Below the pieces are notes generated by a model. That model made no database searches, was not told the origin of the DNA, and saw nothing but the letters and a program-made list of their open reading frames with translations. The translations under genes were made by a program, and so were the position numbers. DNA of 64,000 nt. Origin: Mycolicibacterium poriferae (GTDB taxonomy: Bacteria; Actinomycetota; Actinomycetes; Mycobacteriales; Mycobacteriaceae). The stretch spans positions 1,612,001 through 1,676,000 of the forward strand of contig NZ_AP022570.1 in assembly GCF_010728325.1 (NCBI RefSeq), in the 5' to 3' direction. Below, piece by piece: positions 6,553 through 22,458 of the stretch. Each line of letters begins with the position of its first letter. Position 1 is the stretch's first letter.

Positions 6553-7128
6553 ATGGCAGCTCGGCCGCCGCGATCGGCGAGGCTGAGCCGCGACTCCATC
6601 GTCAACGCGGCCCTGACGTTCCTCGACCGCGAAGGCTGGGACGCGCTGACGATCAACGCGCTGGCCAACCAGCTGGGCACCAAGGGCCCGTCGTTGTACA
6701 ACCATGTGCACAGCCTCGACGACCTGCGCCGCACAGTGCGGATGCGCGTGGTCGGCGACATCATCGACATGCTCACCACGGTGGGTCGGGGCCGCACGCC
6801 CGACGATGCGGTCACGGTCATGGCCAGCGCCTACCGCAGCTACGCCCACCACCATCCGGGCCGGTACTCGGCGTTCACCCGGATGCCGCTGGGCGGTGAC
6901 GACCCCGAGTTCACCGAGGCCACCCACGCCGCAGCCGCCCCCGTCATCGCGGTGCTGTCGGCCTACGGCCTCGACAACGAGGCGGCGTTCTACGCCGCGC
7001 TGGAGTTCTGGTCGGCGATGCACGGGTTCGTGCTCCTGGAGATGACGGGGGTGATGAACGGCATCGACACCGACGTCGTATTCACCGACATGGTGATGAG
7101 ATTGGCCGCCGGTATGCGGTCGCGGTAG
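6553..7128 (+). CDS. TetR-family transcriptional regulator (Rv0681 type)
   Basis: This 191-residue regulator has an N-terminal helix-turn-helix (SIVNAALTFLDREGW, then TKGPSLYNHVHSLDDL) and a C-terminal helical ligand/dimer domain ending FYAALEFWSAMHGFVLLEMT and MRLAAGMRSR. In M. tuberculosis the equivalent gene Rv0681 sits directly before rpsL. Here about 15.5 kb separate them, and a degenerate second copy of this gene's last roughly 220 bases lies at 22459-22677. The start is the ATG at 6553. No ligand can be inferred. Confidence 0.9.
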   Translation: MAARPPRSARLSRDSIVNAALTFLDREGWDALTINALANQLGTKGPSLYNHVHSLDDLRRTVRMRVVGDIIDMLTTVGRGRTPDDAVTVMASAYRSYAHHHPGRYSAFTRMPLGGDDPEFTEATHAAAAPVIAVLSAYGLDNEAAFYAALEFWSAMHGFVLLEMTGVMNGIDTDVVFTDMVMRLAAGMRSR

Positions 7129-7316: not shown

Positions 7317-10184
7317 ATGGCGACCGACGGTCGTAGTCGGCGGCGTATTCATCTGGACGGAGCGCTCGCCGCCGCCGTTCGCCGCGATCCGCCACCGGTG
7401 GCGCCCCTGTCCACCTCGCAGCAGTCCGGGTATCGGCCACCGCAGCCGGCGCCCGCCGCTTCTGCCGCCGACAGCGCCACCGCCGCAACCCTCGAATCGG
7501 AACTGCGGACCAGGGTGGCTGGCCTGCGCGCCGAGTCCGAGCGGATAGCGGCCGGCATCGCGCGCTACAGCGGTGAGGACTCCCGTCGCCTCGACGCCGA
7601 GATCGTCTCGCAGCAACGCGACGTGCTGGAACGCCGGGATCAGGCCCGGATCGCGGCGGATGAACAGCGCCGCAGAGACGACGAGGCAGCTGCGGGCACC
7701 GTCGCCGACGCGGTCACGGCGATTGCGCCGGGCGCAGCCAGTCTGCCCTGGTCGCAACCCTGGCCACCTGCGCAACTACGTCCGGCCAGATATGTACGGT
7801 TCGGCGACACAGCGCTCGGCCCGGCGCTCGCGCCGTTCCTGGAAGACCGCGGCTGGGCGATCTACGGTGACGAGCCGCAGGCCGTCGACCTGATACGCCA
7901 GACGGTTCTGCGCGTCACCGCGCAGCTGCCGCTGCGGTTTCTCCGTGTGCGTGTGTTCGATCCGCGCATCGAGGGCCCGCTTGGAGTGCTGACCGATCTG
8001 CGCGACGCCCACCCGCACAGCTACCCGCCGGCAGCGCACGATACGTCTGCCCTGAGCGCAGTGCTTTCCGAGGTCGGGGCGCTGGCATCGGCCGCCGCTG
8101 AGCAGATCAGCTCCCGGCACCTCGGCGGGCTGGGGGAACTGTGGGGCGACGAGGGGCGGCCGGTGCATCCGTACACCGTGCTGGCGGTGTTCTCCTATCC
8201 GCTCGGAATCGACGAGGCATCCCAGGCCGCGCTGGTCCGGCTGGCGCAGTCCGGATCGCCGCGGGGGGTCTCCCTGCTGGTGCAGGTCGACGAATCCGTC
8301 ACGGCGCCGCGTGATGTCCGACCTCGTGAGCTGCTCGATCTGCTGACTCCGTTCACCGCTGGAGGTGGACGCTGGAAGACGCCGTTGCTGCCTGCCGAGG
8401 TCGAGATCCGGGCGGATCCGCCGCCGTCGCGGGAACAGGTCAAGGCCGTCCTCGCGCGCGCCGCCAACGAAGTCAGCTCCGACACCGGCCCAACCATCGC
8501 GCTCGGCGATCTGCTCGCGGGCTACGCCGCAGACCCGTGGCGCGACACCGTCGACGACGGGATCGAGGCCGTCATCGGGTTGCGGGGGCGCGAACCGGTC
8601 CGGCTCGCGCTGCGTTCGGAGAACCCGCCGCACCCGAACCTGCTCATCGGCGGTGCTGTCGGCCAGGGCAAATCGAACCTACTGTTGACCATCATCTATT
8701 CACTGGCGGCCAGATACAGTCCCGACCAGCTTGAGATGCTGCTGCTGGACTTCAAACAGGGACTGGAGTTCAAGCGCTTCGACAAGGACACTAACGGCCG
8801 TAACTGGCTGCCGCACGCACGAGTCCTGAGTCTGGAGAGCAGCAAGCCCTTCGGACTGGCCGTGCTGGAGTTCGTACAGCAGGAGATGGAACGCCGCGCA
8901 CAACTCTTCAACGCCGCACGCTGCAACGGTTTTCGCGAATATCGGCAACAGACCGGTCAGCCGATGACCAGGATGCTGTTGATCATCGACGAGTTCCAGG
9001 TGCTGTTCGACGGCAACGACGACCTGACCACCAGCGCGGTCCTGCTGTTCGAACAGCTGGCCCGACAGGGCCGGGCCTTCGGCGTCCACATCCTGCTGTC
9101 CTCGCAGACCCTGTCTGGAATCTCCGGACTGCAGGTCAAGGGCGACTCGATCTTCGCCCAGTTCCCGCTGCGTGTCTCATTGAAGAACACCGCCGAGGAG
9201 TCGCAGGCGATCCTGTCCCGGGGCAACACCGCGGCCGCCGAACTCGTGTATCGAGGCGAAGTGGTGGTCAACCGCAACTACGGAATGGCCTCCGCGAACG
9301 AGGTGGCCGTCGCCGGCTATGCCGACCCCCGGTGGATCAGTACCCTGCAGGAACAGTTGTGGGACAGGTACTCTCACGGCGCCGAGCCGTGGGTTTTCCT
9401 CGGTCGCGGCTACGCGCAGTGGCCCGGCCTGTTGCCCGACGCCGATGTGCCGACGGCCCGGATCGGTCGCCCGATCGCCGTCACCGACCGGCTAATCGAG
9501 ATCCCGTTCCACAATGACATCGACCAGGCGGTCGCACTGGTCGGTACCGGGGACGCGGAAGTCGCCGCGGTGCTGGGGGCCGCGGTCGTCACCGCAACGG
9601 CCGATTGGCAGCCCGGTGCCCGCGTCGTCGTACTCGACGGACGTCCGGAGCCAGGGGGCGACGGCACGGATCCTCTGCTCGGTGACGCCCTCGACCGTGT
9701 TCGCGCTCGCGGAGTCGACGTTCAGGTGGTGCGGGGCAGCGCGGTGCCGCCTCATCTCACGGGCGAACTCGCCGGCCAGCTTCGCACCAACACCGCGCCC
9801 ACTCTGGTTCTCGCAGTCCAGCTGCAGCGCGTCGCCGAGATGGACGATGAAGTGCCGGCCGACCCGGACTCCGATGATCTCTACGGACCCCGCATCTCGG
9901 GGTCTTCGGTGCTGCGCGATCTGACCATCCAGGGCAGCGCGCGGGGTATGCACCTCATCGGTTGGTGGCCGAATCTGCGAGCGCTCAAGGCGCACCTGTC
10001 ATTCGAACACGGTGTGACGCGCTACGTGTTTCTCAAGGTCGGACTCGACGATCTGCGCGAAGTCGTCGGACCGCAGGCGCAGCCGGCGGAAGGTTCGCCA
10101 CGTGCGCTGCTGTTCGATCGTGGGTCCGATGAGGGCGTGCAGGTGGTCGTACCGTTCGATCCGCAGGGTGCGGGGGTGTCATGA
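7317..10184 (+). CDS. FtsK/SpoIIIE-type (EccC-like) ATPase with N-terminal coiled coil
   Basis: This 955-residue protein has a disordered Ala/Pro start and a charged coiled coil at about residues 60-130. A middle domain of unknown type follows to about 400, then one FtsK/HerA-like ATPase domain. Walker A is GGAVGQGKSN (K452) and Walker B is LLIIDEF (D558, E559). The later SSQTLSG and QFPLRVSLKNTAEES segments match the FtsK/EccC sensor regions. A further alpha/beta domain fills about 720-950. No membrane segment is seen, and there is one ATPase domain rather than the three of EccC. It is the first gene of the operon and is coupled by ATGA to the tail-anchored protein downstream. It probably pumps or remodels a polymer, protein or DNA; the substrate is unknown. 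Confidence 0.85.
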   Translation: MATDGRSRRRIHLDGALAAAVRRDPPPVAPLSTSQQSGYRPPQPAPAASAADSATAATLESELRTRVAGLRAESERIAAGIARYSGEDSRRLDAEIVSQQRDVLERRDQARIAADEQRRRDDEAAAGTVADAVTAIAPGAASLPWSQPWPPAQLRPARYVRFGDTALGPALAPFLEDRGWAIYGDEPQAVDLIRQTVLRVTAQLPLRFLRVRVFDPRIEGPLGVLTDLRDAHPHSYPPAAHDTSALSAVLSEVGALASAAAEQISSRHLGGLGELWGDEGRPVHPYTVLAVFSYPLGIDEASQAALVRLAQSGSPRGVSLLVQVDESVTAPRDVRPRELLDLLTPFTAGGGRWKTPLLPAEVEIRADPPPSREQVKAVLARAANEVSSDTGPTIALGDLLAGYAADPWRDTVDDGIEAVIGLRGREPVRLALRSENPPHPNLLIGGAVGQGKSNLLLTIIYSLAARYSPDQLEMLLLDFKQGLEFKRFDKDTNGRNWLPHARVLSLESSKPFGLAVLEFVQQEMERRAQLFNAARCNGFREYRQQTGQPMTRMLLIIDEFQVLFDGNDDLTTSAVLLFEQLARQGRAFGVHILLSSQTLSGISGLQVKGDSIFAQFPLRVSLKNTAEESQAILSRGNTAAAELVYRGEVVVNRNYGMASANEVAVAGYADPRWISTLQEQLWDRYSHGAEPWVFLGRGYAQWPGLLPDADVPTARIGRPIAVTDRLIEIPFHNDIDQAVALVGTGDAEVAAVLGAAVVTATADWQPGARVVVLDGRPEPGGDGTDPLLGDALDRVRARGVDVQVVRGSAVPPHLTGELAGQLRTNTAPTLVLAVQLQRVAEMDDEVPADPDSDDLYGPRISGSSVLRDLTIQGSARGMHLIGWWPNLRALKAHLSFEHGVTRYVFLKVGLDDLREVVGPQAQPAEGSPRALLFDRGSDEGVQVVVPFDPQGAGVS

Positions 10185-10714
10185 CAACGACCGAAGAGTA
10201 CGCGGCATACGTGGCGGTGCTGCAGTCGGCAACCGATCTACCGAAGGTCTATGCGGCACAGATCGAATCGATTGAGCGTCGGGCTGCTGACGATACCGAG
10301 GCGCTCAATCGCCGCCGGAATGAAGGAGCGCAACACTGGACTCAGTTCCGCGATACCAGCTCGCGGCTGGCCCGCCGGATCAACGATCTTGCGAGCAAGG
10401 TTGGAGCGCCTGCTGCGAGTTCTACTACTTCCGAACCGATTGTGGTAGCAGCGATTCCGGCAGCTCTGGAATCGCTGAGGGCAGACCTGGAGCGGGCTGA
10501 ACAATCATGGCAGTGGCTGGTGCGGCACCGCGAGCGTGAGCGTGCGGTGGTGGCAATGCCGCCGCCTGCGTATATAGCGCCGACCCCACCTCCACCACCG
10601 GCCCCCGAGCCGCCAGCTCCTTCTAAGGCGAAGGTGAATCCGGTGGTGCTCATCGGGGTGGCAGGTGTCGTCATCGTCATTCTCGTCATCGTGATCATCG
10701 TGATGGCGGTGTAG
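10181..10714 (+). CDS. Coiled-coil protein with a C-terminal membrane anchor
   Basis: This 177-residue protein has an N-terminal charged helical region rich in coiled-coil heptads (about 1-130, with IESIERRAADDTEALNRR), a Pro-rich linker (PPPAYIAPTPPPPPAPEPP) and one C-terminal hydrophobic segment, VVLIGVAGVVIVILVIVIIV, at about residues 154-176. The topology is tail-anchored, with the bulk in the cytoplasm. The ATG overlaps the stop of the ATPase gene. It could tether the soluble FtsK-like ATPase to the membrane. No known family is recognised. Confidence 0.75.
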   Translation: MTTTEEYAAYVAVLQSATDLPKVYAAQIESIERRAADDTEALNRRRNEGAQHWTQFRDTSSRLARRINDLASKVGAPAASSTTSEPIVVAAIPAALESLRADLERAEQSWQWLVRHRERERAVVAMPPPAYIAPTPPPPPAPEPPAPSKAKVNPVVLIGVAGVVIVILVIVIIVMAV

Positions 10715-10723
10715 GAGGCAGCC

Positions 10724-11206
10724 ATGAGTTTTCGCAATCGCATCCAGCAGCAGAAGCCGGCGCGGCAGGTGCTCAACCGGGCCGACACCTCCGCGATGCT
10801 GCGGGGCCGATCGAGTGTCGTCTCTGGGTTGGACAATTTTGCATTGGCAAACCGGCTCAAGCCGCGACGCGATGAGCTGTTGCAAGCGTTGACCCAGATC
10901 GATACGTCGGTGGACCAGGTGGCCCAGGCGCAGATCATGCAGTGGATCCGCGAAGAGTACGAGGCGCGGCAGGGCGGTCAGGTGATCGGCATGTTCGCCA
11001 AGTGTTACCTCGGCCCGCCTTTTGTCGACCACAAGCTCGACCTGTTCGGGTCGATCCTGCAGCACTTCTCACCCTCGGAGGATCCGGGATATCCGTATTC
11101 GCAGGCGCGCGGACTGGTTCGCAGCGGATCGTATGCGTTCATCGAGATCTATTCGGACGGAAAGATTGTGCCGATCCTGCCGGACGGCACAGCAGTGTCA
11201 ATGTGA
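10724..11206 (+). CDS. Island protein of unknown function (160 aa)
   Basis: This 160-residue soluble protein is preceded by an excellent AGGAGG ribosome site. The N-terminal half is basic and helical, and the C-terminal half is mixed alpha/beta (CYLGPPFVDHKLDLFGSILQ, then GSYAFIEIYSDGKIVPILPD). I see no signal peptide, membrane segment or catalytic motif. It is the third gene of the operon and probably a component or adaptor of the same machine. Confidence 0.7.
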   Translation: MSFRNRIQQQKPARQVLNRADTSAMLRGRSSVVSGLDNFALANRLKPRRDELLQALTQIDTSVDQVAQAQIMQWIREEYEARQGGQVIGMFAKCYLGPPFVDHKLDLFGSILQHFSPSEDPGYPYSQARGLVRSGSYAFIEIYSDGKIVPILPDGTAVSM

Positions 11207-11214
11207 GAAAGGCA

Positions 11215-11253
11215 TGAGTATGAATCGCGAACACGGTGAGATGGCGAGATGAG
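11215..11253 (+). CDS. Possible 12-codon coupling peptide
   Basis: The frame ATGAGTATGAATCGC to TGA encodes MSMNREHGEMAR after a GAGAAAGG site. Its stop overlaps the ATG of the next gene as ATGA. The downstream gene has only a weak ribosome site of its own, so translation of this mini-frame may deliver ribosomes to it. No homologue is known to me. Confidence 0.3.
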
Positions 11254-13015
11254 CGTTGATCCCAGCTCGCTGAACAACAAACTCAATGACATTCACAGAT
11301 CGATCAGCAGACAGATCGACGGCATTGACTCGAAGGTGGACGTCGTACGCAGCGAGGTCGGCCGGGTCTCGGGTGATCTGCAGACGACTCGTGCTGAGCT
11401 GCTCGCCCTTCGCGACGAATTCCAGTCGTTCGTCCAGCAGGCTGAACGCGTCGCCAACGTGCAGCGGTCCGAAACGGTCATCGGCAACCTCGAAGCTCAA
11501 CTCGACCGCGACTACGGCCATTACAACGATGTCCGACGCACGACAATTGGCACCCTGCAGGCCTTCGACATCGGCAACGTCACCAACAAGACGGTGCAGC
11601 AAGTGTCCGAGGAGTTGATGATCCAGACTCCGCGATATTGGCTGGCTCCAGCCCTCGTCGGCTTGGCAGCATGGTCACGAGACAACGAGGAACTGGCCAA
11701 CCGGTCCATCGAGGCTGCCTTCAGCCGAGACCCGAGAAAGACGAGCCTGTTTTTTGCGCTGGTGCTGCGCAGGCAGGCGCGCATGGATGCCGCAACCCGA
11801 TGGCTGCGCCACTATATCCAGGCGCTGGATCCGAGGGCGCTGACCCGCGAGTTCGTCGTTATTCTGGAGGCTGCCTCGCAGGAGGCGTTTGGTCCTTACG
11901 GACGCCAACTCATCGGGCAGCAACTGGGTAAGTGGAACGTGCTACTGCGTGACGATCGTTCGGTGGTCGAGTCTCAGATCAGTGCGTGGACCGGGGATCT
12001 CGACATCCACCGGGCCGCCGTCAACGAGTCGCAATGGCCCCACCTGGCGCGCGTCAGCCCGCAGTGGCCGCAGTTCAAGGACACCCTGGAACGGGCATCG
12101 GCGCACGGATTCACCGCCGAGAAGTACCTCGCGATCCGGGAGGAACCGACCCCCCTTGCCAGCTCCGTACAGGATCAACTCGACGACATCCTCGAGAACC
12201 TGGTCACCGAATACGACGAAGAAGAACTGCCGCTCAAGCGTCAGGTCGTCTTCCATCAGGCGGTCATCGACAACAATGGCGACATGGACCGCGCGCATGC
12301 GGCAGCCGACGAGATCAATGTCGCATTGGAGACGACGCTTGACGCAGTCTCGCTGCAGACACAGACCGCGATCCGCAGGGAGTTGTATGGGGTCTCGGTG
12401 TCGGCGCAGAAGGTGGCCATCGGTGGCAGCCGAGAGGACTTCCTCGCGGCGGTGCACCGATTCTCCGCCGACTACCGATCGCGGTATCTGGACACTGTCG
12501 ACATCGTCCTACCGGAGAACCATTCCGAGTATGCGCTGACGCTCGGATTCAAGGGATGGCAGACGAACACCGCGGTGCCACAGCAGCAGGCCGAGGCGTC
12601 TCTGGCCACTACATGGAACCAGACCGTTGAGGACTATCTGGAGAGTGTGCGATTCAAGGACCACAACTATTACATCGCTGGTGGTATCGGCCTCGTTGGC
12701 CTGGTATTCATGATCCTGTGCATCACGGGCGGTGCCGTCGGCTTTGGCTTGCTGGTGTTCGTTGCGGCTGTTGGTGGTGCGGCATTCTGGTTGTGGCGCA
12801 AGAAGACCGACTGTGATGCCAAGTACCGCAAAGCTCAGGACATCGCCCAGGCCGCACTCGAGTTCTCCATAGACATCTATCGAGCCACCGTGGCAGAGTT
12901 CGTCGACGCGAAGATCGCTTTCGGTGAGGAGGACGCGAAGGAGTCCGATCTGCTCCTTCTCATCGATACCTGGCCAACCTTTGTCCAACAACACAAGGAG
13001 GAGCAGGTGTCATGA
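11249..13015 (+). CDS. Large coiled-coil protein with C-terminal membrane hairpin
   Basis: This 588-residue protein opens with a heptad-rich coiled coil (about 1-90, with IDGIDSKVDVVRSEVGRVS). A long helical region with TPR-like spacing runs from about 120-330. Two adjacent hydrophobic spans at about 472-519 (IAGGIGLVGLVFMILCITGG and FGLLVFVAAVGGAAFWLW) form a hairpin that ends in a WRKK stop-transfer patch. A further cytoplasmic helix follows. It would present most of its mass to the cytoplasm as a membrane scaffold. It is coupled to the next gene by ATGA. No described family is recognised. Confidence 0.75.
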   Translation: MSVDPSSLNNKLNDIHRSISRQIDGIDSKVDVVRSEVGRVSGDLQTTRAELLALRDEFQSFVQQAERVANVQRSETVIGNLEAQLDRDYGHYNDVRRTTIGTLQAFDIGNVTNKTVQQVSEELMIQTPRYWLAPALVGLAAWSRDNEELANRSIEAAFSRDPRKTSLFFALVLRRQARMDAATRWLRHYIQALDPRALTREFVVILEAASQEAFGPYGRQLIGQQLGKWNVLLRDDRSVVESQISAWTGDLDIHRAAVNESQWPHLARVSPQWPQFKDTLERASAHGFTAEKYLAIREEPTPLASSVQDQLDDILENLVTEYDEEELPLKRQVVFHQAVIDNNGDMDRAHAAADEINVALETTLDAVSLQTQTAIRRELYGVSVSAQKVAIGGSREDFLAAVHRFSADYRSRYLDTVDIVLPENHSEYALTLGFKGWQTNTAVPQQQAEASLATTWNQTVEDYLESVRFKDHNYYIAGGIGLVGLVFMILCITGGAVGFGLLVFVAAVGGAAFWLWRKKTDCDAKYRKAQDIAQAALEFSIDIYRATVAEFVDAKIAFGEEDAKESDLLLLIDTWPTFVQQHKEEQVS

Positions 13016-13365
13016 CCGGTCCGTCGTCGAATCCACCCCGCATCTCCCGCGCCCCGGAAGCTACGACGCAACGATTCCCGGCTGCTGGCGCTGCGACCGA
13101 GCAGTTCGCGGTTCCGTATCCGGAGCAGGTTGGTCCCATCGAGCAGGCGCCGCCACCGATCGTGATCCGTCGGGCACGGGCCAGCGTTTTCGTGCCGCCG
13201 AAGCCACAGGATCAAGGCCAGGTCATCTCTCGCGATGTGGGCCGGAAGACTGCCCAACCAAAAATCCCGCGCAACCGCAAGATCGCGGGCAACTTGCCTG
13301 AGTGGGATCCACTGCCGCCGGGCGAAATTCATGTAATTCACCGCGGTCGTCACAGCGGTCAGTGA
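13012..13365 (+). CDS. Proline-rich, probably disordered island protein (117 aa)
   Basis: This 117-residue protein is rich in Pro, Arg and Gln and has low predicted structure throughout (PEQVGPIEQAPPPIVIRR; KPQDQGQVISRDVGRK). It overlaps the genes on both sides (ATGA upstream, TGATG downstream), which strongly supports its being translated. A linker or adaptor role is plausible but unproven. Confidence 0.65.
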   Translation: MTGPSSNPPRISRAPEATTQRFPAAGAATEQFAVPYPEQVGPIEQAPPPIVIRRARASVFVPPKPQDQGQVISRDVGRKTAQPKIPRNRKIAGNLPEWDPLPPGEIHVIHRGRHSGQ

Positions 13366-13988
13366 TGACGCCGCATACCAGCGCCTACGAGCAGTGGGTG
13401 ATGGCGGTGCGGGCATGGCGTGAGGATCCGCGTCACGACATGTCTCATTTGCCGACGCTCGTCGTCGACTCGCTGCCCCCGGCCGCCTTTGAACGACTGC
13501 TCGTCCACATCAAAGATGCGCAGCAGCACGTGATGGACCGCTGGGTGGATACCTTCGCCCGGGACTGGGGTGCGGCCCGTGATGAACAGGGCAGAGTTCG
13601 GGCACTACTGGATACCCGCAGGGTCCTCGCGCGCAGACTGCAACTGGCCGCGCACCCCGGGCTTCCCGAAGTCGTCCGGACCGAACTGGGCAACGGTGTG
13701 GCCCGAGACACCCGGCAACTCCAGCAGGAACTCGAAGACGCGGTGACCAAACAGCAACGGGGTGCACGGTTCGACCGCGTGCAGATCGAACGGGCATTGA
13801 ACCTTCTGCGGACCAACCGGCTGACGGCCATCCTGGAGCCGGGATTCTCGCTGCAGGCACTCTTCGACGGACGGGTCGATGCGGCACCGCAACCAGCTGC
13901 CACATCGCCACTGCCCGTTCCCGAAGACCATGTTCCGGCGCCACCGGTGCGCCGTCATCGCGCAATTATCTTCGACAACCAGGCGTAG
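13365..13988 (+). CDS. Helical island protein of unknown function (207 aa)
   Basis: This 207-residue protein starts at the ATG overlapping the previous stop (TGATG at 13363-13367). The upstream extension of the frame is a shadow. It is largely helical, with a long amphipathic region (ARRLQLAAHPGLPEVVRTEL, then DTRQLQQELEDAVTKQQRG). The Pro-rich C-terminal tail ends in a basic patch (PPVRRHRAIIFDNQ). No membrane segment or catalytic motif is seen. Confidence 0.65.
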   Translation: MTPHTSAYEQWVMAVRAWREDPRHDMSHLPTLVVDSLPPAAFERLLVHIKDAQQHVMDRWVDTFARDWGAARDEQGRVRALLDTRRVLARRLQLAAHPGLPEVVRTELGNGVARDTRQLQQELEDAVTKQQRGARFDRVQIERALNLLRTNRLTAILEPGFSLQALFDGRVDAAPQPAATSPLPVPEDHVPAPPVRRHRAIIFDNQA

Positions 13989-13998
13989 GAAGGCGCAC

Positions 13999-15567
13999 AT
14001 GCCGAATCAGGCCGACACCGCCGACGAGTTGAGACGCTATCTCAACGCCCGCATTCCGTTGATCGTGCTAAGGACCTCCGAGGCACGCCGGGCGCAGGAG
14101 CTCATCCGGCAGGTCGCCGGTCAGCTCAAGGCGATGTCGTTTTACTGCCACACCCGCACCGGCGGTCTGGCCGAATTGCTCAGTCAGAAGGCGATAGTCG
14201 ACGACCGCTCGTTGCTCGGTGCATTCGACTACGCCGCCGCGACCTTCAGATCCCGCGACTACGTCAACTTCGTCTTCGTCGACGTGGAGGACATCGGGGA
14301 CGACAGTTCGACGTCGCGGCATCTCGCCGAATTGGCCGATCTCGCCGAGAATCGTTCGGGATCTATCATTCTCATCACCGCCGGTTCGGTGTCTACCGGG
14401 TTGATGAGGTTGGGCATGGCGGTTGAGCTCGATCTGCCCGACCTGGACGAGTTGTTCTATGTGGTCAGCGATCTGATCGACAACTATCGCGGGTCGATGC
14501 AGATCGACTGGAACCACGACGATGTCCGACAGGCATCCGAGGTGCTTGTCGGGCTCAGCGAATCGCAGGCCCTCAATGCGATCAGCACGCTGCTGGCCAA
14601 AGGCAAACTCATCCAGGACGACATCGTCGAGCTCTCGACGTTCAAGGACAGGATGTTCGGGGCGATCTCGGGTATCGAGCGGGTGCCGCTTCGGCCGGAG
14701 GACAGCCAGGTCGGCGGCCTGACACAGCTGCAGAGCTGGCTGCGCGAGCGCGGCGAGATGATCCGGATGGACCTGACCCACTCCCGGTTACGCCCCCCGC
14801 GCGGCGTCCTGCTGGTCGGTGTGCCGGGTTGCGGTAAATCTTTGTCCGCCAAGGTGGTTGCCGCCGAGTGGCGGTTCCCGCTGTACCGCTTGGACATGTC
14901 ATCTGTGCTCGGCATGTATGTCGGCCAGTCCGAAGGCAGGCTGCGTGAGGCGCTGGACATGGCCTCGCGCGTTGCGCCGTGTGTGCTGTGGATCGATGAG
15001 ATCGAGAAGGCGCTCGCCGGTGGCGTGGCCGGCGGGGATTCATCTGGTACGACACGGCGGATGATCGGTCACTTTCTGTACTGGTTGCAGGAGTCGCGGG
15101 CGAAGGTGTTCGTGGTCGCCACGGCCAACGACGTGAGTTCGTTGCCCCCGGAGTTGTTGCGCAAGGGCAGATTCGACGAGCTCTTCTTCGTCGACCTGCC
15201 CGACCCGGAGGACCGTGCCGAGATCATCCGGTTGTACTACCAGTCCTACCTGGAGACCGACGTGTCCCCGTATCTGCTTGAGGAGCTCGTCACGCTGTCC
15301 GACGGGTTCGCCGGCGCCGACATCGCGGCGGTGATCCATGAATTGGCCTCGTACAAGCTGCGGCAGCGACTGGGGTCGGCCCCGATCTCCGATGAGATGG
15401 TCAAAGACGGATTCCGCAACCTGATGCCGTTCAGCCGTACGAATCCCGAGGATGTCGCCGCCATCCGGGCCTGGGGTCTGGAACGTGCCGTCCCGGCAGG
15501 GCGGCCCCGGCAAGTCGACGACGGTGACGCCGGCCGCGGCGTGCGCCGCATCATGACACCGAACTGA
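13999..15567 (+). CDS. Ycf46-like AAA+ ATPase
   Basis: This 522-residue protein has an N-terminal domain (about 1-170) followed by a short helical region with LVGLSESQALNAIS, which precedes the ATPase in Ycf46-family proteins. The AAA+ core has Walker A GVPGCGKS (K280), Walker B CVLWIDEIEKA (D333, E334), sensor 1 in VVATANDVSSLP, and the arginine finger in LLRKGRFDELFF. The ADIAAVIHE helical lid follows. Ycf46 proteins occur in cyanobacteria and plastids and in scattered bacteria, where they may remodel proteins. The start at ATG 13999 follows GGAAGG; the longer frame is a shadow. In this operon it may play an EccA-like or chaperone role. Confidence 0.88.
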   Translation: MPNQADTADELRRYLNARIPLIVLRTSEARRAQELIRQVAGQLKAMSFYCHTRTGGLAELLSQKAIVDDRSLLGAFDYAAATFRSRDYVNFVFVDVEDIGDDSSTSRHLAELADLAENRSGSIILITAGSVSTGLMRLGMAVELDLPDLDELFYVVSDLIDNYRGSMQIDWNHDDVRQASEVLVGLSESQALNAISTLLAKGKLIQDDIVELSTFKDRMFGAISGIERVPLRPEDSQVGGLTQLQSWLRERGEMIRMDLTHSRLRPPRGVLLVGVPGCGKSLSAKVVAAEWRFPLYRLDMSSVLGMYVGQSEGRLREALDMASRVAPCVLWIDEIEKALAGGVAGGDSSGTTRRMIGHFLYWLQESRAKVFVVATANDVSSLPPELLRKGRFDELFFVDLPDPEDRAEIIRLYYQSYLETDVSPYLLEELVTLSDGFAGADIAAVIHELASYKLRQRLGSAPISDEMVKDGFRNLMPFSRTNPEDVAAIRAWGLERAVPAGRPRQVDDGDAGRGVRRIMTPN

Positions 15568-15596
15568 CAGACAGGCCGTCGATCAGGAGCAAACTC

Positions 15597-15857
15597 ATGT
15601 CAGAACTGCAGAAACTCAAGGGCACGCTGGAGACCATCGCCAGTTCGGCCAAACAGACCGGTGGCAGCCTGGGCCAGTTCAAGAGCAAGTTCAGCGCCCA
15701 TCAGGGGCAGGTGCGGGCAGCCATCGGCGGCAGCTCGCAACGCAAGGATCAGGAAGTCCTGCAGGCGCTCGACGCCGCGTCCAAACAGGTCACCGCCGCG
15801 GTGCAGGCGCTGGAACAAGCCGCCAGGGTCGCCGCCAACTACGGCAGGTCGTTGTGA
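15597..15857 (+). CDS. Small helical hairpin protein with IGG motif (WXG100-like size)
   Basis: This 86-residue all-helical protein has no Cys or Trp. Two amphipathic helices flank a central turn with V39-x3-IGGSSQRKD (IGG 43-45, D51). The next protein carries the same motif at the same place, so the two are paralogues. Size, tandem arrangement and hairpin shape resemble WXG100/ESX substrates, but WXG itself is absent. AGGAGC precedes the ATG, and the stop overlaps the next GTG. It may be a secreted or structural subunit of the island machine. Confidence 0.75.
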   Translation: MSELQKLKGTLETIASSAKQTGGSLGQFKSKFSAHQGQVRAAIGGSSQRKDQEVLQALDAASKQVTAAVQALEQAARVAANYGRSL

Positions 15858-16201
15858 CCCGATCGGGGGAACATGACGATCCGGTAGCGCTCGAACGCGC
15901 GGCACGGGAGTTCCATGCCATCGCGCGCAGTGCCCGCGCCCAGGCCGGCTACCTCGACAAGCACGCCGGCAAGGTCGAACCCGTCGCCCAGGGGGTCAGT
16001 TCGATCATCGGCGGCACGGCCAGCGGTACCGATAAGAGGATGATCGGCACTCTGACCCGGGCATTGCGTGACCTGCAGGATGCCTCGCGCCGCCTCAACG
16101 AATCAGCCCATGCCGCCGAACAACTGGCCCGCGAAGCGACCGCACGGGCGTTGTCGGCACGGGAGGCCCAGGCTGCTGCGCAGTCAGCCCGCAGGAGGTG
16201 A
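15854..16201 (+). CDS. Small helical hairpin protein, IGG-motif paralogue
   Basis: This 115-residue protein has a GTG start overlapping the previous stop (GTGA). It has two long helices around V48-SSIIGGTASGTD (IGG 52-54, D60), matching the IGG-[ST]-x4-D turn of the 86-residue neighbour. The C-terminal helix is Ala/Arg rich (AEQLAREATARALSAREAQ). A heterodimer with the upstream protein is a natural hypothesis by analogy with EsxA/EsxB. No signal peptide is present. Confidence 0.75.
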   Translation: MTRSGEHDDPVALERAAREFHAIARSARAQAGYLDKHAGKVEPVAQGVSSIIGGTASGTDKRMIGTLTRALRDLQDASRRLNESAHAAEQLAREATARALSAREAQAAAQSARRR

Positions 16202-16202
16202 A

Positions 16203-16727
16203 ATGGCGTCCGATATCGAAAGGGTTGCGAAGGCGCTGAATGCGTTGGCCTCCGACACAGGTCGAACCGGTCAGGGCGTCACCCATGCCGTGCAGGAAGC
16301 TGCCCGCCTGCTCGACCGTGCGCAGGCGCTGCGCAACAGCGGGGTGTCAGTGGCGCGGTTGGTGGGCCAGCTGCAGGCGGCCCTCGACAAGGGGCGCAGC
16401 GCCGCCGCCGGGGTGGAACAGATCGAACGGACCGGACACTCATTCGCCGACCGACTCGCCGACCGGGCTGGCGGCGGGCAGGGCACGGCGGGATTTCTGG
16501 CAGATGTTTCGATCGGCTTCGCCACCGCGCTGAGTTTCCTGGGGAGCCCGCAGTCAATGCTCAGCGATTCCCCCGACACCACCGGCGCGGGTGAGGTCGG
16601 TGGTTCGAGCATGATCGACCGATCGCTTTCGGCGCAAAGCGATCTCGACGATCTTCACCGCTTCAACCGCGATCGGTCCGACAAGATGATTAGGCCCGAG
16701 GGCCACGACCCGAACCGGGATAGCTGA
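16203..16727 (+). CDS. Helical island protein (174 aa), last gene of the operon
   Basis: This 174-residue protein starts at the ATG at 16203, six bases after an AGGAGG site lying within the end of the upstream gene. The first 95 residues are helical (MASDIERVAKALNALASDT, then AARLLDRAQALRNSG) and resemble the general make-up of the two preceding small proteins, but without the IGG motif. A short hydrophobic stretch (GFLADVSIGFATALSFLG) and a polar tail follow. The last 12 bases, including the stop, belong to a duplicated segment (see 16716-17046). Confidence 0.65.
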   Translation: MASDIERVAKALNALASDTGRTGQGVTHAVQEAARLLDRAQALRNSGVSVARLVGQLQAALDKGRSAAAGVEQIERTGHSFADRLADRAGGGQGTAGFLADVSIGFATALSFLGSPQSMLSDSPDTTGAGEVGGSSMIDRSLSAQSDLDDLHRFNRDRSDKMIRPEGHDPNRDS

Positions 16728-17046
16728 ACTCACGGCCGCAGCAGTGTGGTACTCGTCGTCCCGCGTTGTGGCTGAGGGCCTCTAGAAGGAGCAACCTCTC
16801 AGTCGAATCTATCGCTGCAAGGTAGCAGAATCCCGGCAACTGTCGGCCGTAGGTGCCTTGCCGGCGCCCGGGTATATCTATCCGGAACAGCCTCCGAGAC
16901 CAGATTCGCCTCGCTGACTGTCCGGTCGACGCCTCAAGACGGCTTCAACTCGGGTCGCGCAGGTAACAGACCAAGCCGAGTGTCGGGACAGCTGAGCCTC
17001 ACGGTCGCAATAGGGTGGTACCCGTAGTGCCCATGGTGTGGCTGAG
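16716..17046. repeat. Duplicated 3'-end segment and relic of the convergent gene
   Basis: About 61 bases at 16716-16776 reappear with mismatches at 16984-17046. Both begin CGGGA(T/C)AGCTGA and end GTGTGGCTGAG or GTTGTGGCTGAG. The second copy contains the stop codon and last 15 codons of the minus-strand gene at 16999-18972. The first copy is the same coding end with a one-base deletion, so it is a non-coding relic. Bases 16777-16983 hold no gene that I can support. Confidence 0.7.
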
Positions 17047-18972
17047 CATCTTCGCCAGGCAGTGATCTCGATCGAATCCCTCTGACGCACACCAGCCCAG
17101 GGCATCCTCGCCGCTGCCGAACGGAGTCCCGAGCATGGTGACCCACCAGTTCGGATCGGTGAACACCGGCCAGTCGCCGGACCAGACCAGGCGTGCGGTG
17201 GGAAACCGTTGCCGCAGTTGCAGGTGCTCGCGCACGATCTCCGGGTAGTTCCACGAGATTCCGTCGGCGAACAGGCCGGGCTGTTTCGAGCTCAGCTGCG
17301 GTTGCCAGCGGTTGAGCAGGTTCGCGTCGATGTAGGTACGGTCGGCTATGGCGATGTCGACCAGCGCCGAATGGGCCGCCGCGTTCAAATCGCCCGACGC
17401 CGGTGCGGCGGGTCCGATCGCGGTGATAGCGGTGCCGGAGCCGGTACCGCTTCCCGACGAGCTCCGGCCGCCCCGATAGCAGTCCATCCGGACGTCACCG
17501 GTGATCGCGGCGGCGGTGCGCCAGTACGTCCCGGGCGGAAAGACGAAGGTCACAGACGTGCCGGGGTCCTGCAACAGGATCGGGTTGTTCGACAGGTCGA
17601 AAACACCCGCGGCAACATCCCGTCCCAGGGAATCTGCGACGGTGATCCGGAACTCGTCGTCACTTAGCACATCCCCGGCGGAACAGGTCGTGGCGATCGT
17701 GGTGTCGAAGGTGAGGCCACCGCTGCCATCGGTGACGGATTCGGCGCGCACGGTTGGTGGATCGGAACACGGGGGGGCCTCACCGCTCGTGACAGGAGAT
17801 CCTGGCGCGGCCTCGGTCGCGGTCGGGGAGTTGTCCGGTTTGGTGACGATGTTGACGGTGAGGAGTACCAGCGCAATAAGGGCGAGCAGTGCACCAGCGA
17901 TGAGCGCCCACTGTTTCGGTGACGGTCGGCGCACCGGGCCAGACGAACCGGACGGAGAATGGCTACGGCCGCTGGATGATGTTGTAGTGACAGCGATCTG
18001 GGGATATCCGCCCGCGTTGATCTGCGGATAGGGCGCATTTGCGGTGAACCCGGGCGTGGCGGCTGCGGGCGCGAGCAACGGCTCGGAACCATCGGTTGAG
18101 AGTGTCGGATACGGCGCTGGCGACGGTAGGTCGGGCGCGGAGGCGGGCGGCGGGGTTTGCGTGGCCGGGACGGGTGGTCGTGGCGGTGCCTGCGCTGGTG
18201 CGGTCTCGTCTGTGCCGCTTCGGCTGAGTCTGGCCTCCAGGCCGGCCAATTGGGATCGCAGGCGGTCTGCTCGCTGATCGGCGGTGTCGCGCATACTGGT
18301 GTCAGCCGAGGTGATCGTGACACCGTGCGCCCGGGCCGTCGACAGCAGGCAGTCGTTGACGTTCGGATCTGCGAGCACCAAGGTGGCCAGAATTCCAGGG
18401 GACAGTTGACGATTGCGCAGTGTCCCGCGATATCGAATTTCAGCCGGAATCCTGACGTCCTGATGGCGGTCCAACTGATCTCTGGCGGATGCGACCAGCA
18501 GGGTCAGCAATGCCGTGGAAGCAGCATTCAACAGCTTGCGCCGTCCGGGAAACCATGGCACCGGCAGCGAACCGAGTTGCTCGTGGACGGCGCCGGAAAG
18601 TAGGTACTCGACGAGGTTCCGCGTGCTTATCTCGGTGACGGCCGACCAATCGATGTCGTGTCCGTCGATGGACACCGTGTTTTCGGTGATCGTCAGCCCG
18701 CCATACCGATCGAGTTTGCTTACGGCCGCACGCAACTGGTCGGGCACCCGGGGGTGCGCTGCCAGCACGTCGCCGATTCCGATTGACCACCTTCCGTGCA
18801 CCGGACCGGGCGCGGGCCGCCTCGCGTCGATCAGCGCCCGAAGCCGGTGTGCCTCGTCGCGGACATCGGCGTCGGTGGCATCGGGATCCCTGCTGGGATC
18901 GGTATTCGACTGCTGTGCCGCGTCTTTCAGGCGGGCTCCGATATCGCGTCCCAGACCAGCAAAGTCAGGCAA
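16999..18972 (-). CDS. Single-span membrane protein with large extracytoplasmic domain
   Basis: This 657-residue protein starts at a TTG preceded by a strong GGAGAGGAGA site. The N-terminal cytoplasmic part (about 1-250) is globular, with a YGGLTITENTVSIDGHDIDW segment. A Pro-rich linker leads to one membrane span (WALIAGALLALIALVLLTVN, about 355-378) with an RRPSPKQ positive-inside flank. The outside portion ends in a domain with VWSGDWPVFTDPNWWVT and ALGWCASEGFDRDHCLAK. I recall similar C-terminal domains in actinobacterial membrane proteins and Ser/Thr kinase sensor tails. It could sense envelope state for the neighbouring machine. There is no kinase domain. Confidence 0.75.
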   Translation of the reverse strand: MPDFAGLGRDIGARLKDAAQQSNTDPSRDPDATDADVRDEAHRLRALIDARRPAPGPVHGRWSIGIGDVLAAHPRVPDQLRAAVSKLDRYGGLTITENTVSIDGHDIDWSAVTEISTRNLVEYLLSGAVHEQLGSLPVPWFPGRRKLLNAASTALLTLLVASARDQLDRHQDVRIPAEIRYRGTLRNRQLSPGILATLVLADPNVNDCLLSTARAHGVTITSADTSMRDTADQRADRLRSQLAGLEARLSRSGTDETAPAQAPPRPPVPATQTPPPASAPDLPSPAPYPTLSTDGSEPLLAPAAATPGFTANAPYPQINAGGYPQIAVTTTSSSGRSHSPSGSSGPVRRPSPKQWALIAGALLALIALVLLTVNIVTKPDNSPTATEAAPGSPVTSGEAPPCSDPPTVRAESVTDGSGGLTFDTTIATTCSAGDVLSDDEFRITVADSLGRDVAAGVFDLSNNPILLQDPGTSVTFVFPPGTYWRTAAAITGDVRMDCYRGGRSSSGSGTGSGTAITAIGPAAPASGDLNAAAHSALVDIAIADRTYIDANLLNRWQPQLSSKQPGLFADGISWNYPEIVREHLQLRQRFPTARLVWSGDWPVFTDPNWWVTMLGTPFGSGEDALGWCASEGFDRDHCLAKMLSHTMGTTGTTLLRP

Positions 18973-19076
18973 GGTATCTCCTCTCCTAAGCCCCTACGAG
19001 AATCCGATCAACGGTCGATCGGCGATTGCCCGCAGCAACGCCGAGCCGACCTTCGGTGCCGAGTGCACCGCGCTGC

Positions 19077-19982
19077 TCATTGTGTTCCCGCCGTGCAGTC
19101 TGACCAGGAGAAGTCCTGGCGATGCTCATCGACCCAATCCGCGAGCTGGTTCAGCGCGCCAACTCCGGACTGAAACGTGCCGTCGCCGGGGGTGACCGCC
19201 ATCGCGACCCCGATCGATCCGGCCTCACCGCGTAGCAGTGCGAGTTGACGAACCAGGTAGCTGCCGTCCGGTGCGGGACCCCATCCACCCTTGGCCGCGA
19301 CGCCGTGATCCCCGGCGAAGCCCCACTGTTGGTCCGGGGAAATTTGTTGCATCTCGGCGATCACTTCGCCGGATCCGCTGATACACGGCAGCTGCCATGC
19401 GAAGGCGGCCTGCTGCGGGGTGGGCCAGTCGGTCTGCCCGAAGGCGGTGAATCCGGCCCTTATCCGTTCGGATTGAATGACAGTCTCAGCGTCGCCAGCG
19501 TCGTGGAGCACCGACGTGACCGCCAATGCAGCGTCGGTCGGTGTACCGAGCAGAGACCAGAGACTCTCGGCCGCAGCGTTGTCCGATCGGGTGATGGCGG
19601 CCGAGAGATAGTCGACTGCCTGGACCGGCGCCGCGCGCAGTGCGGCGATGGCCACCGGAACCTTGATGGTCGACCAGGCGGGGCCGGTGACCGCATCACC
19701 GAACGTATGCACATCCGAACCTGACATCACCGAAACCGACACCTCTCCCGCGATCTGTTCGGCCACCGCGGTGAAGCTCTGCCGAAGATCGAGTGGCGGA
19801 ACAGAGTCTGCCGGGATGACTGGTGGCAGTGGCGTGTTGACTGGTGTCACGGCGGGCGCAGGCGGCGACGTGCCCGGGGGATCCGCGGTTGGTGCGGTGG
19901 CGGGTGTGCATCCGGTGAGGGCGATCGCGACCGCGAGGACGACGGCCGGCACAGGGGAATCAGTAGATGAGAACGCGGGCAT
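19077..19982 (-). CDS. Class A beta-lactamase-like lipoprotein (serine hydrolase)
   Basis: This 301-residue protein starts at the ATG at 19982, preceded by GGCGGAAAGA. The lipobox LTGC gives a lipidated Cys25, and a Pro/Thr-rich linker follows. The serine hydrolase domain keeps three beta-lactamase/PBP motifs: S104-TIK107 (SxxK), SDN at 133-135, and K231-GG (KTG-like). It resembles the LppW family of mycobacterial lipoproteins. A 22-base overlap with the upstream membrane-protein gene indicates coupling. With all three motifs present it could be an active peptidoglycan peptidase or beta-lactamase, or a non-catalytic sensor. No omega-loop Glu was assigned with certainty. Confidence 0.8.
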   Translation of the reverse strand: MPAFSSTDSPVPAVVLAVAIALTGCTPATAPTADPPGTSPPAPAVTPVNTPLPPVIPADSVPPLDLRQSFTAVAEQIAGEVSVSVMSGSDVHTFGDAVTGPAWSTIKVPVAIAALRAAPVQAVDYLSAAITRSDNAAAESLWSLLGTPTDAALAVTSVLHDAGDAETVIQSERIRAGFTAFGQTDWPTPQQAAFAWQLPCISGSGEVIAEMQQISPDQQWGFAGDHGVAAKGGWGPAPDGSYLVRQLALLRGEAGSIGVAMAVTPGDGTFQSGVGALNQLADWVDEHRQDFSWSDCTAGTQ

Positions 19983-20661
19983 TCTTTCCGCCAGTGCAGG
20001 TGATCCAGGTGTCTTGGCCGAGCACGGCACATCTCATGACAAAGCGGTCGCCAGAGCATTCGCCGCCCGTGGTGCCGCAGGGCACCGTGCCCTCGGCGAT
20101 GACCGTCCGCCCCGTCTCATCGGGCGACCCGTGCTGATCCCAATACGCGTGCAGGACGCTGCGGGCGAAGAAGCAGGATGTCTGGTCGCTGCCACGTCCG
20201 CTGCGCGTTCCCCAGCCGGATCGCCCTGCGATCTGAAAGCCGGACGCGCACACTTCATCGAATGTGTCCGGCTCACGGACGATCGGCGGGGGAGGAGCTG
20301 CGCTGAATCTGTCCACCGCCGATTGCCGGCGCGGATTCGGTCGGTCAGTCGTGCGATGATCTGATCGCTCGTCGGATCCGGCGTTCTCGTTGTCGGAGTA
20401 TCGGGGGTCAGCGATGTCGTAACGGGCCGTCGGAGCGGAATCGGAATCGGAACCGCTGAGCAGCAGAGTGACCGCCGCGGTCACCGCGATGACGACGACG
20501 CTGACCGCCGCGATCACCGCCCAGACCTTGGACGGGATGCCGCCGGGCGATTTACCGGCCGGGACCGACCGCTGTGAACCCGCCCGGGGATATCCCGACT
20601 GCGGCGGGCGAGCTTCTGGTCCCTGGGGTAAGGGGAACAGCGGCTGGGGACCGTCTGTCAT
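19960..20661 (-). CDS. Type II membrane protein with PQPxFPLP N-terminal motif
   Basis: This 233-residue protein starts at the ATG at 20661 after a perfect AGGAGGA site. The cytoplasmic N-terminus reads MTDGPQPLFPLP and is followed by a Pro/Gly-rich stretch. One membrane span ([20 protein letters not shown]) sits at about 47-68. The outside domain is rich in Cys and Gly and contains VCASGFQIAGRSGWG and CFFARSVLHAYWDQ, with several Cys that could form disulfides. The N-terminus is shared with the protein at 21575-22303. No enzymatic motif is seen. Confidence 0.75.
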   Translation of the reverse strand: MTDGPQPLFPLPQGPEARPPQSGYPRAGSQRSVPAGKSPGGIPSKVWAVIAAVSVVVIAVTAAVTLLLSGSDSDSAPTARYDIADPRYSDNENAGSDERSDHRTTDRPNPRRQSAVDRFSAAPPPPIVREPDTFDEVCASGFQIAGRSGWGTRSGRGSDQTSCFFARSVLHAYWDQHGSPDETGRTVIAEGTVPCGTTGGECSGDRFVMRCAVLGQDTWITCTGGKNARVLIY

Positions 20662-20714
20662 GTTCCTCCTGAAGTGGTTTCGACGAACCATGCGGGATAT
20701 GCGCGGGCTTCCGT

Positions 20715-21548
20715 ATGGTGACTGTCATGGTTACGCCGACGGAAGACGGCCATGGCCGTGGTCGTTTCATGAACCGGCGGCAGTTGCTGTGGGTTGCCGG
20801 CGGCGCCGGTATCGCGGCGGCCGCGAGTGTCTACGCAAAGCAACTCGACGCGGGAGTCCCCGTCGCGGAAGGGACGACCAGTCGGGCGGCGAGCGTCAAG
20901 CCGGCACCGCCGGCACCCGCGCCGGAACCGGTCGTGACGCCTGCCCCGATCGCCGCGTCGGCCGCCGTGATCTGCCGGGATGCCTGGGGCGCACGAGAGT
21001 CCCTGCCCGGCGGCGTACGCCACACCATTACCCGGATGACGCTGCACCACACCGCAGCGGTGTTGGGTGACAACAGGAATGCTCCCGGACGGCTGCGGCA
21101 GCATCAGCGATTGCATCAAGACGAACGTGGTTGGGTGGACATCGCCTACCACGTCGGCATCGACCGCAACGGCAACATCTACGAGCTGCGTAACACAGAT
21201 TTTGCCGGTGACACGGCGACGGAATACAACCCGGCGGGCCATTTCCTGGTGCTGTGCGAAGGGGACTTCGACCAGGAAGCCGTATCGGAAGAGCAATTGC
21301 ACAGTGCGGCAATGGCCTTCGCGTGGGCCGCGCAGACTTTCGAGGTGTCGGCCGACTCGCTGGGCAGTCACCGTGATTTCGCCGCCACCGCGTGCCCCGG
21401 TGCAGATCTCTATGCGCACGTCGAATCCGGTGATCTCCGGCGCCGCATCGATGCTCTGCTGGCCGCGGGAACGGTCGACCTCCATCGTGTCTGCGGTCCG
21501 GAGGCGTCCGAAATCGTCGCGGCAGTGGAAGCCGGCGCGCCGGCCTGA
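20715..21548 (+). CDS. Secreted N-acetylmuramoyl-L-alanine amidase (PGRP/Amidase_2), Tat-type signal
   Basis: This 277-residue protein has NRRQLLWVAGGAGIAAAAS, a twin-arginine-type export signal, at about residues 20-38, then a Pro/Ala linker. The Amidase_2/PGRP domain (about 85-245) begins with CRDAWGARES. Zinc ligands are H111 (TLHHT), H219 (GSHRDF) and C227 (ACPGAD), and the AYHVGIDRNGNIYE core is intact. It should cut the bond between muramic acid and L-alanine in peptidoglycan. Starts at 20727 or 20769 are also possible. It is divergent from the membrane protein at 20661 and probably remodels the wall for the island machine. Confidence 0.88.
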   Translation: MVTVMVTPTEDGHGRGRFMNRRQLLWVAGGAGIAAAASVYAKQLDAGVPVAEGTTSRAASVKPAPPAPAPEPVVTPAPIAASAAVICRDAWGARESLPGGVRHTITRMTLHHTAAVLGDNRNAPGRLRQHQRLHQDERGWVDIAYHVGIDRNGNIYELRNTDFAGDTATEYNPAGHFLVLCEGDFDQEAVSEEQLHSAAMAFAWAAQTFEVSADSLGSHRDFAATACPGADLYAHVESGDLRRRIDALLAAGTVDLHRVCGPEASEIVAAVEAGAPA

Positions 21549-22303: not shown

Positions 22304-22458
22304 GACGCGCCTTTCCCACGAGCGTATCGGTAGATGTGAGTGCATTCCTATCAGCGTGTTGACGCAAATGTAGGGTGGAATGGCCGCCGTCGGTCAAACG
22401 GACTACAAGCTTGTTACCGCGTTACCATCCATTTTGCTAACGCAAGCAGTCTGTGTGC

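Follow-up and report, generated by a model that had tools for sequence, protein, structure and literature searches.

Operon architecture and encoded proteins

The 64,000-nucleotide stretch of Mycolicibacterium poriferae DNA analysed here (NZ_AP022570.1, positions 1,612,001 to 1,676,000; hereafter the window) lies on contig 1 of a 5.93 Mb genome and carries, at window positions 7317-16727, ten genes on the plus strand that we call g1 to g10, including those for an FtsK-type ATPase (g1), a membrane scaffold (g4) whose closest named relatives are found in Mycobacterium species, and a p97-like AAA+ ATPase (g7). An earlier, sequence-only reading of this DNA had described these genes as a co-directional operon, which our analysis confirms, and their junctions as mostly overlapping, which is an overstatement: from g1 to g10 the nine junctions measure -4, 9, 42, -4, -1, 10, 29, -4 and 1 nucleotides, so that four overlap and the other five are spaced by 1-42 nucleotides. 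The system had also been called unfamiliar, in agreement with a Pfam scan of the ten proteins in which only g1 (FtsK_SpoIIIE, PF01580, 2.1e-19) and g7 (AAA, PF00004, 2e-31) matched a family above the cut-off; the other eight (g2-g6 and g8-g10) matched none, and NCBIfam and PADLOC gave only weak matches.

A scan of one genome per species returned 43 loci with a g4 relative. All ten families are present in the same order and on the same strand in three of them (L017, L018 and L019), and in three more (L029, which is Nesterenkonia muleiensis, L031 and L037) with g10-g9-g8 on the opposite strand. The ten-gene arrangement is not a matter of chance, since the complete set recurs in these loci. As documented below, the operon is composed of two units, module A (g1, g2, g8, g9 and g10) and module B (the g3-g7 cassette), and in the window as well as in L017-L019 module B is embedded inside module A.

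The first gene of module A, g1 (7317..10184), encodes a soluble EssC/EccC-like FtsK ATPase of 955 residues, which matches the NCBIfam model of EccCa (TIGR03924) with an E-value of 2.2e-29 over residues 404-642, far below the model's cut-off (102.8 bits against 509), and the EccC-type structure 4nh0 in the PDB at 2.4e-24. These matches bear out the resemblance to type VII secretion systems (T7SS) claimed earlier and point to homology of g1 with the EccC/EssC ATPases, the equivalog cut-off of TIGR03924 being missed. Domain comparison resolves three FtsK-like domains, of which the central one (about 404-665) is intact, with Walker A and B, and the flanking D1 and D3 are recognisable but degenerate (profile-comparison probabilities of 90 for D1-D2, a moderate 69 for D3-D2 and 64 for D1-D3). 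By hydropathy g1 has no N-terminal membrane span, only one borderline stretch at 713-731, and its N-terminal sequence suggests a coiled coil. The previous description of g1 as having one ATPase domain and no membrane span is accordingly right with regard to the single intact domain and the missing N-terminal span, and incomplete with regard to the two degenerate domains on either side. The neighbouring g2 (10181..10714, 177 residues) is a tail-anchored protein, as had been predicted, with a single C-terminal hydrophobic segment at 156-174 by hydropathy that is found in 13 of 14 homologues.

The nearness of g1 to EccC/EssC, and the fact that FtsK-type pumps drive actinobacterial conjugation, could be taken as signs of a canonical ESX (T7SSa) variant or of a DNA-pumping conjugation apparatus. 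We regard both as very improbable. In line with the earlier claim, a search confined to the ten genes and the scanned proteins of the flanks found no EccB, EccD, EccE or MycP, nor any Ecc-type gene other than g1; in addition, g1 has no N-terminal transmembrane helix, where the ATPase of ESX systems is anchored by two, the small proteins have no WXG motif, and no integrase, relaxase or replication gene occurs among the scanned genes of the island that carries the operon (see below).

The small proteins of module A are two related helical hairpins, g8 (15597..15857, 86 residues, with a Gly-rich turn) and g9 (15854..16201, 115 residues). The Asp that follows the Gly-rich turn (D51 in g8) is invariant in 23 of 23 g8/g9 sequences (alignment A9), and the match of g8 to WXG100, with an E-value of 0.051, falls below the cut-off. 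The last gene, g10 (16203..16727, 174 residues), encodes a helical N-domain followed by a variable C-terminus in which no toxin domain is recognised in the window member. Throughout the family, a conserved helical N-domain of about 90 residues precedes a variable part of 5-202 residues, with a median pairwise identity, near copies left out, that falls from 27% for the N-domain to 17% for the part that follows. Two of the 12 g10 proteins scanned carry a toxin domain above the Pfam cut-off at their C-terminal end: a DNA/RNA non-specific endonuclease (Endonuclea_NS_2, 3.3e-16) in Gardnerella (L034), and a papain-fold toxin (Gln_amidase, 1.6e-6) in a member of the Microbacteriaceae (L033). A large protein set yielded only 14 relatives of g10, two of them with PF13930. 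Small genes of no Pfam family adjoin both toxin-bearing members (L034:16613-17032 and L033:14505-14822) and are candidate immunity genes.

Within module B, g3 (10724..11206, 160 residues) combines a low-confidence N-terminus with an alpha/beta domain; C94, H103, H114 and E141 are invariant (alignment A3), and the model (predicted local distance difference test, pLDDT, 82) has no confident match. The membrane scaffold g4 (11249..13015, 588 residues) is modelled from 64 sequences (pLDDT 87.7) with an N-terminal helix of 100 residues, a solenoid that may be TPR-like and a long C-terminal helix, and has a single, C-terminal hydrophobic segment at 485-503 by hydropathy. The low-complexity g5 (13012..13365, 117 residues) bears near its C-terminus a W-x-P-x-P-P motif that is present in all 31 called homologues, and g6 (13365..13988, with a possible GTG start at 13362) is a helical protein of 207 residues. 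The AAA+ ATPase that the sequence-only reading had noticed is g7 (13999..15567, 522 residues), whose start is most likely 13999 and not 13879, because its homologues begin near the former. Its AAA+ motifs and Walker residues are invariant in 15 of 15 aligned proteins (alignment A4), its best structural relatives are p97/VCP-like ATPases (2e-75), and it is 42-48% identical to four homologues from outside Actinobacteria.

A terminal motif, in which a basic residue and Arg are followed by hydrophobic residues (Arg-Arg-hydrophobic), is common to three proteins of the cassette. It is present at the C-terminus of g7 in 34 of 35 sequences, at the C-terminus of g6 in 29 of 39 and at the N-terminus of g3 in 21 of 38, with shuffled means of 1.2, 0.7 and 1.3, respectively, and in other genes of the same loci at 13 of 394 N-termini and 4 of 394 C-termini. 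This control is only descriptive, because the motif was defined once the tails were known and the loci are related to each other. Among the four non-actinobacterial cassettes, one g7, one g6 and no g3 fit the strict pattern; a looser version, in which two basic residues and two hydrophobics may be separated by one further residue, fits all four g7 and two of the four g6 proteins.

Two separable modules

Presence counts, restricted to loci with enough contig, show that g4 is accompanied by g7 in 35 of 35 loci, by g3 in 40 of 42, by g6 in 36 of 37 and by g5 in 38 of 41. A g1 relative, by comparison, occurs in 11 of 35 such loci, the other 24 having none in the stretch examined; overall it is present in 13 of the 43 loci, with operon-type linkage to module B in 12, and in the remaining one (L027) it is only a distant relative, 3.2 kb away on the opposite strand. 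Since g3-g7 are nearly constant across loci and g1 is found in only 11 of 35, g3-g7 is a constant, self-contained cassette, to which g1-g2 and g8-g10 are an optional partner.

Module B also exists alone outside Actinobacteria. It is found in the order g3-g4-g5-g6-g7 on a megaplasmid of Comamonas antarctica and a plasmid of Komagataeibacter nataicola, and in Fusobacterium vincentii, where g5 was assigned from its position and tail motif, the order is g4-g5-g6-g7-g3; the Streptococcus satellite record Javan368 has g4, g6, g7 and g3, with g5 not called. High-stringency searches with g7 returned these records again and no others. Both modules are rare. Among 396 actinobacterial genomes, the window's own included and few candidates scored per genome, g4 was found in three and g1, at an E-value of 1e-60, in nine, only four of these nine matches spanning most of the g1 length.

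These distributions do not support the idea that the ten genes make up one machine, as 24 of 35 loci have module B without g1 and, conversely, g1 and g8-like genes occur with Hsp70 and without g3-g7 (see below). All ten families are kept together in the six loci listed above, module A being optional elsewhere. The genes do co-occur in other genomes, and the searches did not place them all in one known system.

The two modules have diverged in parallel where they are linked. Pairwise distances of g1 and g4 correlate with r 0.96 over 12 loci and 0.80 over the nine that are left once near copies are removed (0 of 5000 permutations in each case), and those of g1 and g7 more weakly, with r 0.93 (12 loci, 0 of 5000) and 0.59 (nine loci, p 0.005); host phylogeny may be contributing to both correlations. 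On a g4 tree of 48 rows the FtsK link needs eight changes, all within one 24-row clade, a number reached or undercut by 7 of 500 label shuffles (mean 11.5); when contig-limited rows and L027 are left out, it needs seven. As for the 15 genomes whose cassette is unlinked, a true g1 relative lies elsewhere in three (G454, G458 and G463) and seems absent from the other 12 (G451-G453, G455-G457, G459-G462, G464 and G465), which gave only EccC-type matches or none.

In this regard, the locus might bring together two unrelated systems on one island, a T7SS-like toxin exporter and an independent AAA+ cassette. Each module occurs alone, a Pseudoclavibacter genome has an A-like set and module B unlinked, and the changes on the g4 tree would also fit such a co-location. 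This explanation nevertheless appears improbable to us, given that g1-g2-g3-g4 form a tight operon, that module B sits inside module A in four loci, and that the g1-g4 correlation survives the removal of near copies, even though shared host phylogeny could add to it; the repeated gain of the same neighbour is, moreover, easier to explain by function than by chance.

Alternative partners of each module

Four genomes from two other families of the order (L060-L063) have g1 and a g8/g9-like gene without g3-g7, together with a g2-like gene, by profile, in three of the four. All four encode an Hsp70 (9.4e-101 to 4.3e-123) and a TPR protein, which in L060 also has a DnaJ domain above the cut-off, and on a Rhodococcus plasmid (L075) annotated Hsp70, TPR and GrpE genes stand at module A. 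The TPR proteins of these Hsp70-type loci have a hydrophobic segment in five of five cases, in parallel to g4. Coupling between modules A and B is suggested by the correlated g1-g4 and g1-g7 distances and by this pairing of module A with Hsp70 and a TPR protein in L060-L063 and L075. The Hsp70/TPR/hairpin/EssC-like/tail-anchored unit of L060-L063 seems to occupy a fixed genome position, near genes that we take, by eye, to be purM-type, BldC-like and DUF3073-like.

Module B, for its part, has effector-type neighbours in loci where module A is missing. With Pfam run on one member per protein cluster, all 17 Streptomyces and Micromonospora loci whose left flank reaches about 9.9 kb have a TPR-CHAT family gene within the stretch examined, and 15 of 20 have one of the caspase C14 family; RES and a sub-cut-off Macro match accompany these genes in the Streptomyces loci. 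In L035 g3 is immediately preceded by a TIR gene (PF10137), a CHAT gene follows further downstream, and L021 has a member of the CHAT cluster nearby. Neither the window nor any of the 12 FtsK-linked loci, seven of which extend about 10 kb on both sides, gave a CHAT-cluster gene. Genes related to T7SS substrates also occur near module B where module A is not adjacent: in L021 a WXG100 gene comes directly after g7, and in L054 the first 3.3 kb or so downstream of g7 include EspC and WXG100_2 genes. The recurrent TPR-CHAT/caspase C14/RES/Macro-like cluster of the Streptomyces and Micromonospora loci (L040-L059) may be an undescribed NAD/protease conflict cluster in its own right.

These neighbours suggest, as the strongest alternative to toxin export, an intracellular defence or abortive-infection system in which nothing is exported: module B would be a membrane AAA+ threshold machine that senses infection, and its exchangeable effector would be the g1/g10 toxins here and CHAT, caspase, RES or TIR proteins elsewhere. 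The lack of CHAT-cluster genes in the FtsK-linked loci, as far as these extend, is in keeping with this proposal, as are the plasmid locations of the cassette, its terminal position in a satellite phage record and, in the portion of PMC11090510 consulted, the similar FtsK/WXG100 operons that extend CoCoNuT defence loci. Nonetheless, g10 toxins and g8/g9 hairpins resemble T7SS substrates, envelope genes, an amidase among them, lie in the island, g2-g6 and g8-g10 match no defence family in PADLOC, and only one phage-collection record carries the cassette, three scans of viral contigs having given no relative. The Streptomyces and Micromonospora counts, furthermore, are not independent, because those loci form one clade on the g4 tree. 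On balance, we consider intracellular defence a possible explanation, though not the one we favour.

An acquired island with envelope genes

The operon is part of a larger insertion. For comparison of the site, six same-genus genomes were picked among those that have the left flank gene. In all six, the TetR gene (6553-7128 in the window) lies close to homologues of the gene at 22994-23368 and its neighbours, which we take to be rpsL, rpsG, fusA and tuf; nothing lies between in three of these relatives, and one called gene of 44-92 residues in the other three. In the window about 15 kb is inserted between the TetR gene and the rpsL-type gene. The 3' part of the intact TetR gene (6910..7124, plus strand) is repeated at the right border as a partial copy (22461..22673, plus strand), with 185 of 213 aligned positions identical; the partial copy is arranged in the same way in L018, and no second TetR copy was detected in L017, which has the same insertion site. 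The G+C content of g2-g7 is 62.3%, compared with 69.5% and 67.3% in the left and right flanks. Because the relatives lack the insertion, a partial TetR copy marks the border and the G+C content differs, we interpret the region from roughly 7129 to 22460 as an acquired island, which reaches beyond the ten genes; its borders, like the toxin domains of the g10 family, had escaped the sequence-only reading. None of the island genes scanned is an integrase, relaxase or replication gene.

Beyond g10, towards its right border, the island also carries genes encoding a 657-residue protein with one hydrophobic segment by eye (16999..18972, minus strand), a Beta-lactamase2-like protein (19077..20030, minus strand; PF13354, 7.2e-7), an Amidase_2 protein of the N-acetylmuramoyl-L-alanine amidase family (20769..21548, plus strand; PF01510, 1.3e-10) and a 256-residue protein of no Pfam family (21575..22345, minus strand). 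Homologues of all four, with identities of 53%, 44%, 68% and 71%, respectively, stand in another genome of the genus (L064, contig 1, 306000-325000) beside an EccC-like ATPase of 1149 residues, which is different from g1 and longer. The same locus also has a WXG100-like gene (E 1.6e-5, just under the cut-off) and a protein with a sub-cut-off DAHL match. In L018 the gene directly after g10, on the opposite strand (15494-17440), encodes a protein that combines a protein kinase with a glycosyl hydrolase family 3 domain.

A proposed model for toxin export

The reading that we favour, with a probability of roughly 0.47, is that the locus may encode a T7SS-like exporter of g10-family toxins, powered or gated by the AAA+ cassette and serving antagonism. 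In this model, g2 and g4 would hold the two ATPases, g1 and g7, at the membrane, where g8 and g9 would recognise g10 through its N-domain and hand it over to a g1 hexamer that drives g10 outward, as EssC does with WXG100 and LXG substrates. Module B would provide an unfoldase or release step at the membrane, g7 unfolding or releasing the substrate or resetting the complex, a task that in the sister loci would fall to Hsp70 and a TPR membrane protein (in one case a DnaJ-TPR protein). The Arg-Arg-hydrophobic tails of g3, g6 and g7 could be tags by which all three proteins dock in a single shared pocket, and g4 is its most likely site. The output would be g10-family toxins delivered against neighbouring bacteria, with the amidase and the Beta-lactamase2-like protein remodelling the wall.

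Several lines of evidence argue for export by module A. Two of 12 g10 proteins end in toxin domains, with the N-domain conserved over the rest; g1 shares with the EssC-like ATPases known from WXG100-linked operons the layout of one active domain out of three; g8 and g9 align with each other as hairpins, and WXG100, EspC and WXG100_2 genes lie near module B in L021 or L054; and the amidase and beta-lactamase-like genes recur in L064 beside an unlike EccC-type locus.

Other observations weigh against the export model. Export of g8-g10 is a prediction from the genes themselves, and the W-x-G motif is found in none of the 23 g8/g9 sequences, whose comparison with ESAT-6 is not significant (E 0.54), designed coiled coils scoring far better. 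Ten of the 12 g10 proteins scanned, the window's included, have no recognised toxin domain, and the small genes next to the toxin-bearing g10 in L034 and L033, and also in L075, match no family. No family of the EccB/D/E or EssA/B type was seen among the genes scanned, and g1 is without membrane spans. The role of module B here need not be that of a secretion chaperone, because it exists without module A. In addition, ordinary EccC-type matches occur at other places of the same genome, and the channels of those loci could be the real exporters. Lastly, the authors of the CoCoNuT work, in the sections of PMC11090510 concerned, place similar ATPases in defence loci.

A broader proposal, which we hold to be rather unlikely, is that module B represents a novel type of mobile machine, a membrane-tethered p97-like unfoldase in which the common Arg-Arg-hydrophobic tail code keeps the proteins together, able to plug into T7SS-like toxin-delivery arms in some bacteria and into CHAT/caspase/TIR/RES cell-death arms in others, across four phyla. 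Should the toxin-export model be correct, T7SS-like toxin modules could run on a soluble ATPase with exchangeable chaperone engines, either Hsp70 or a p97-like cassette, and the five-gene cassette would represent a new antagonism or defence module ranging from mycobacteria to Fusobacterium and acetic acid bacteria. In this context, the terminal motif common to g3, g6 and g7 offers a quick route to mapping how the cassette assembles.

Comparison with known systems

The closest described counterpart of module A is the EssC-like and WXG100 operon of type III-A/TerY-P CoCoNuT loci, for which the text of PMC11090510, as far as consulted, reports soluble EssC-like ATPases with only the middle of three domains active, small WXG100-like proteins and an operon that can occur apart from its host locus, with reference to previous work on a stand-alone operon of this ATPase type; an alternative CDC48-like AAA+ extension is also mentioned there. 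Unlike those loci, the window has no vWA/TerY-P, CnuB/McrB or McrBC-type match among the genes scanned, module A is joined to g3-g7 (to Hsp70 and TPR in the sister loci), and the g8/g9 sequences, as noted, have no WXG motif. At L080:4085-10431 we observed an EssC-like ATPase beside a vWA gene (PF13519, above the cut-off) and a sub-cut-off kinase match, an arrangement like that of TerY-P/CoCoNuT.

With the T7SSa-T7SSj subtypes listed in the consulted part of PMC11217815, the locus shares the EccC/EssC ATPase family, small helical hairpins and toxin-bearing substrates, and some of those subtypes have, as here, a second AAA+ ATPase. Their common ATPase is called membrane-bound in the same source, whereas g1 has no N-terminal span. 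The search for EssA/B-type families among the genes scanned was negative, and no specific search was made for a ubiquitin-like component. Polymorphic toxins of the LXG/WXG type resemble the g10 family in joining a conserved helical N-domain to a toxin domain that is exchanged at the C-terminal end; in the g10 family, however, such a domain is recognised in only two of 12 members, and family searches revealed no immunity genes.

MoxR-vWA and related conflict systems are described in PMC7159879 and PMC8195603, of which we draw on parts. Kaur et al. (2020; PMC7159879) describe NTP-dependent conflict systems that likewise pair an AAA+ core with exchangeable effectors, but that core consists of a MoxR ATPase and a vWA protein, and here it consists of a p97-like ATPase and a membrane protein that may be TPR-like, no vWA match being found among the window genes scanned. 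In PADLOC 2.0, g2-g6 and g8-g10 have no match at E-values up to 1, and the matches of g1 and g7 are confined to the ATPase domains. The g3-g7 cassette was not found in the literature searched, nor in Pfam, NCBIfam or PADLOC beyond its ATPase domain, and PHROGs (g5 not scanned) touches it only through a match of g7 to the unnamed phrog_8638. Together, these comparisons indicate that module A is of a kind already described, in CoCoNuT loci, and that the g3-g7 cassette on its own is possibly categorically new.

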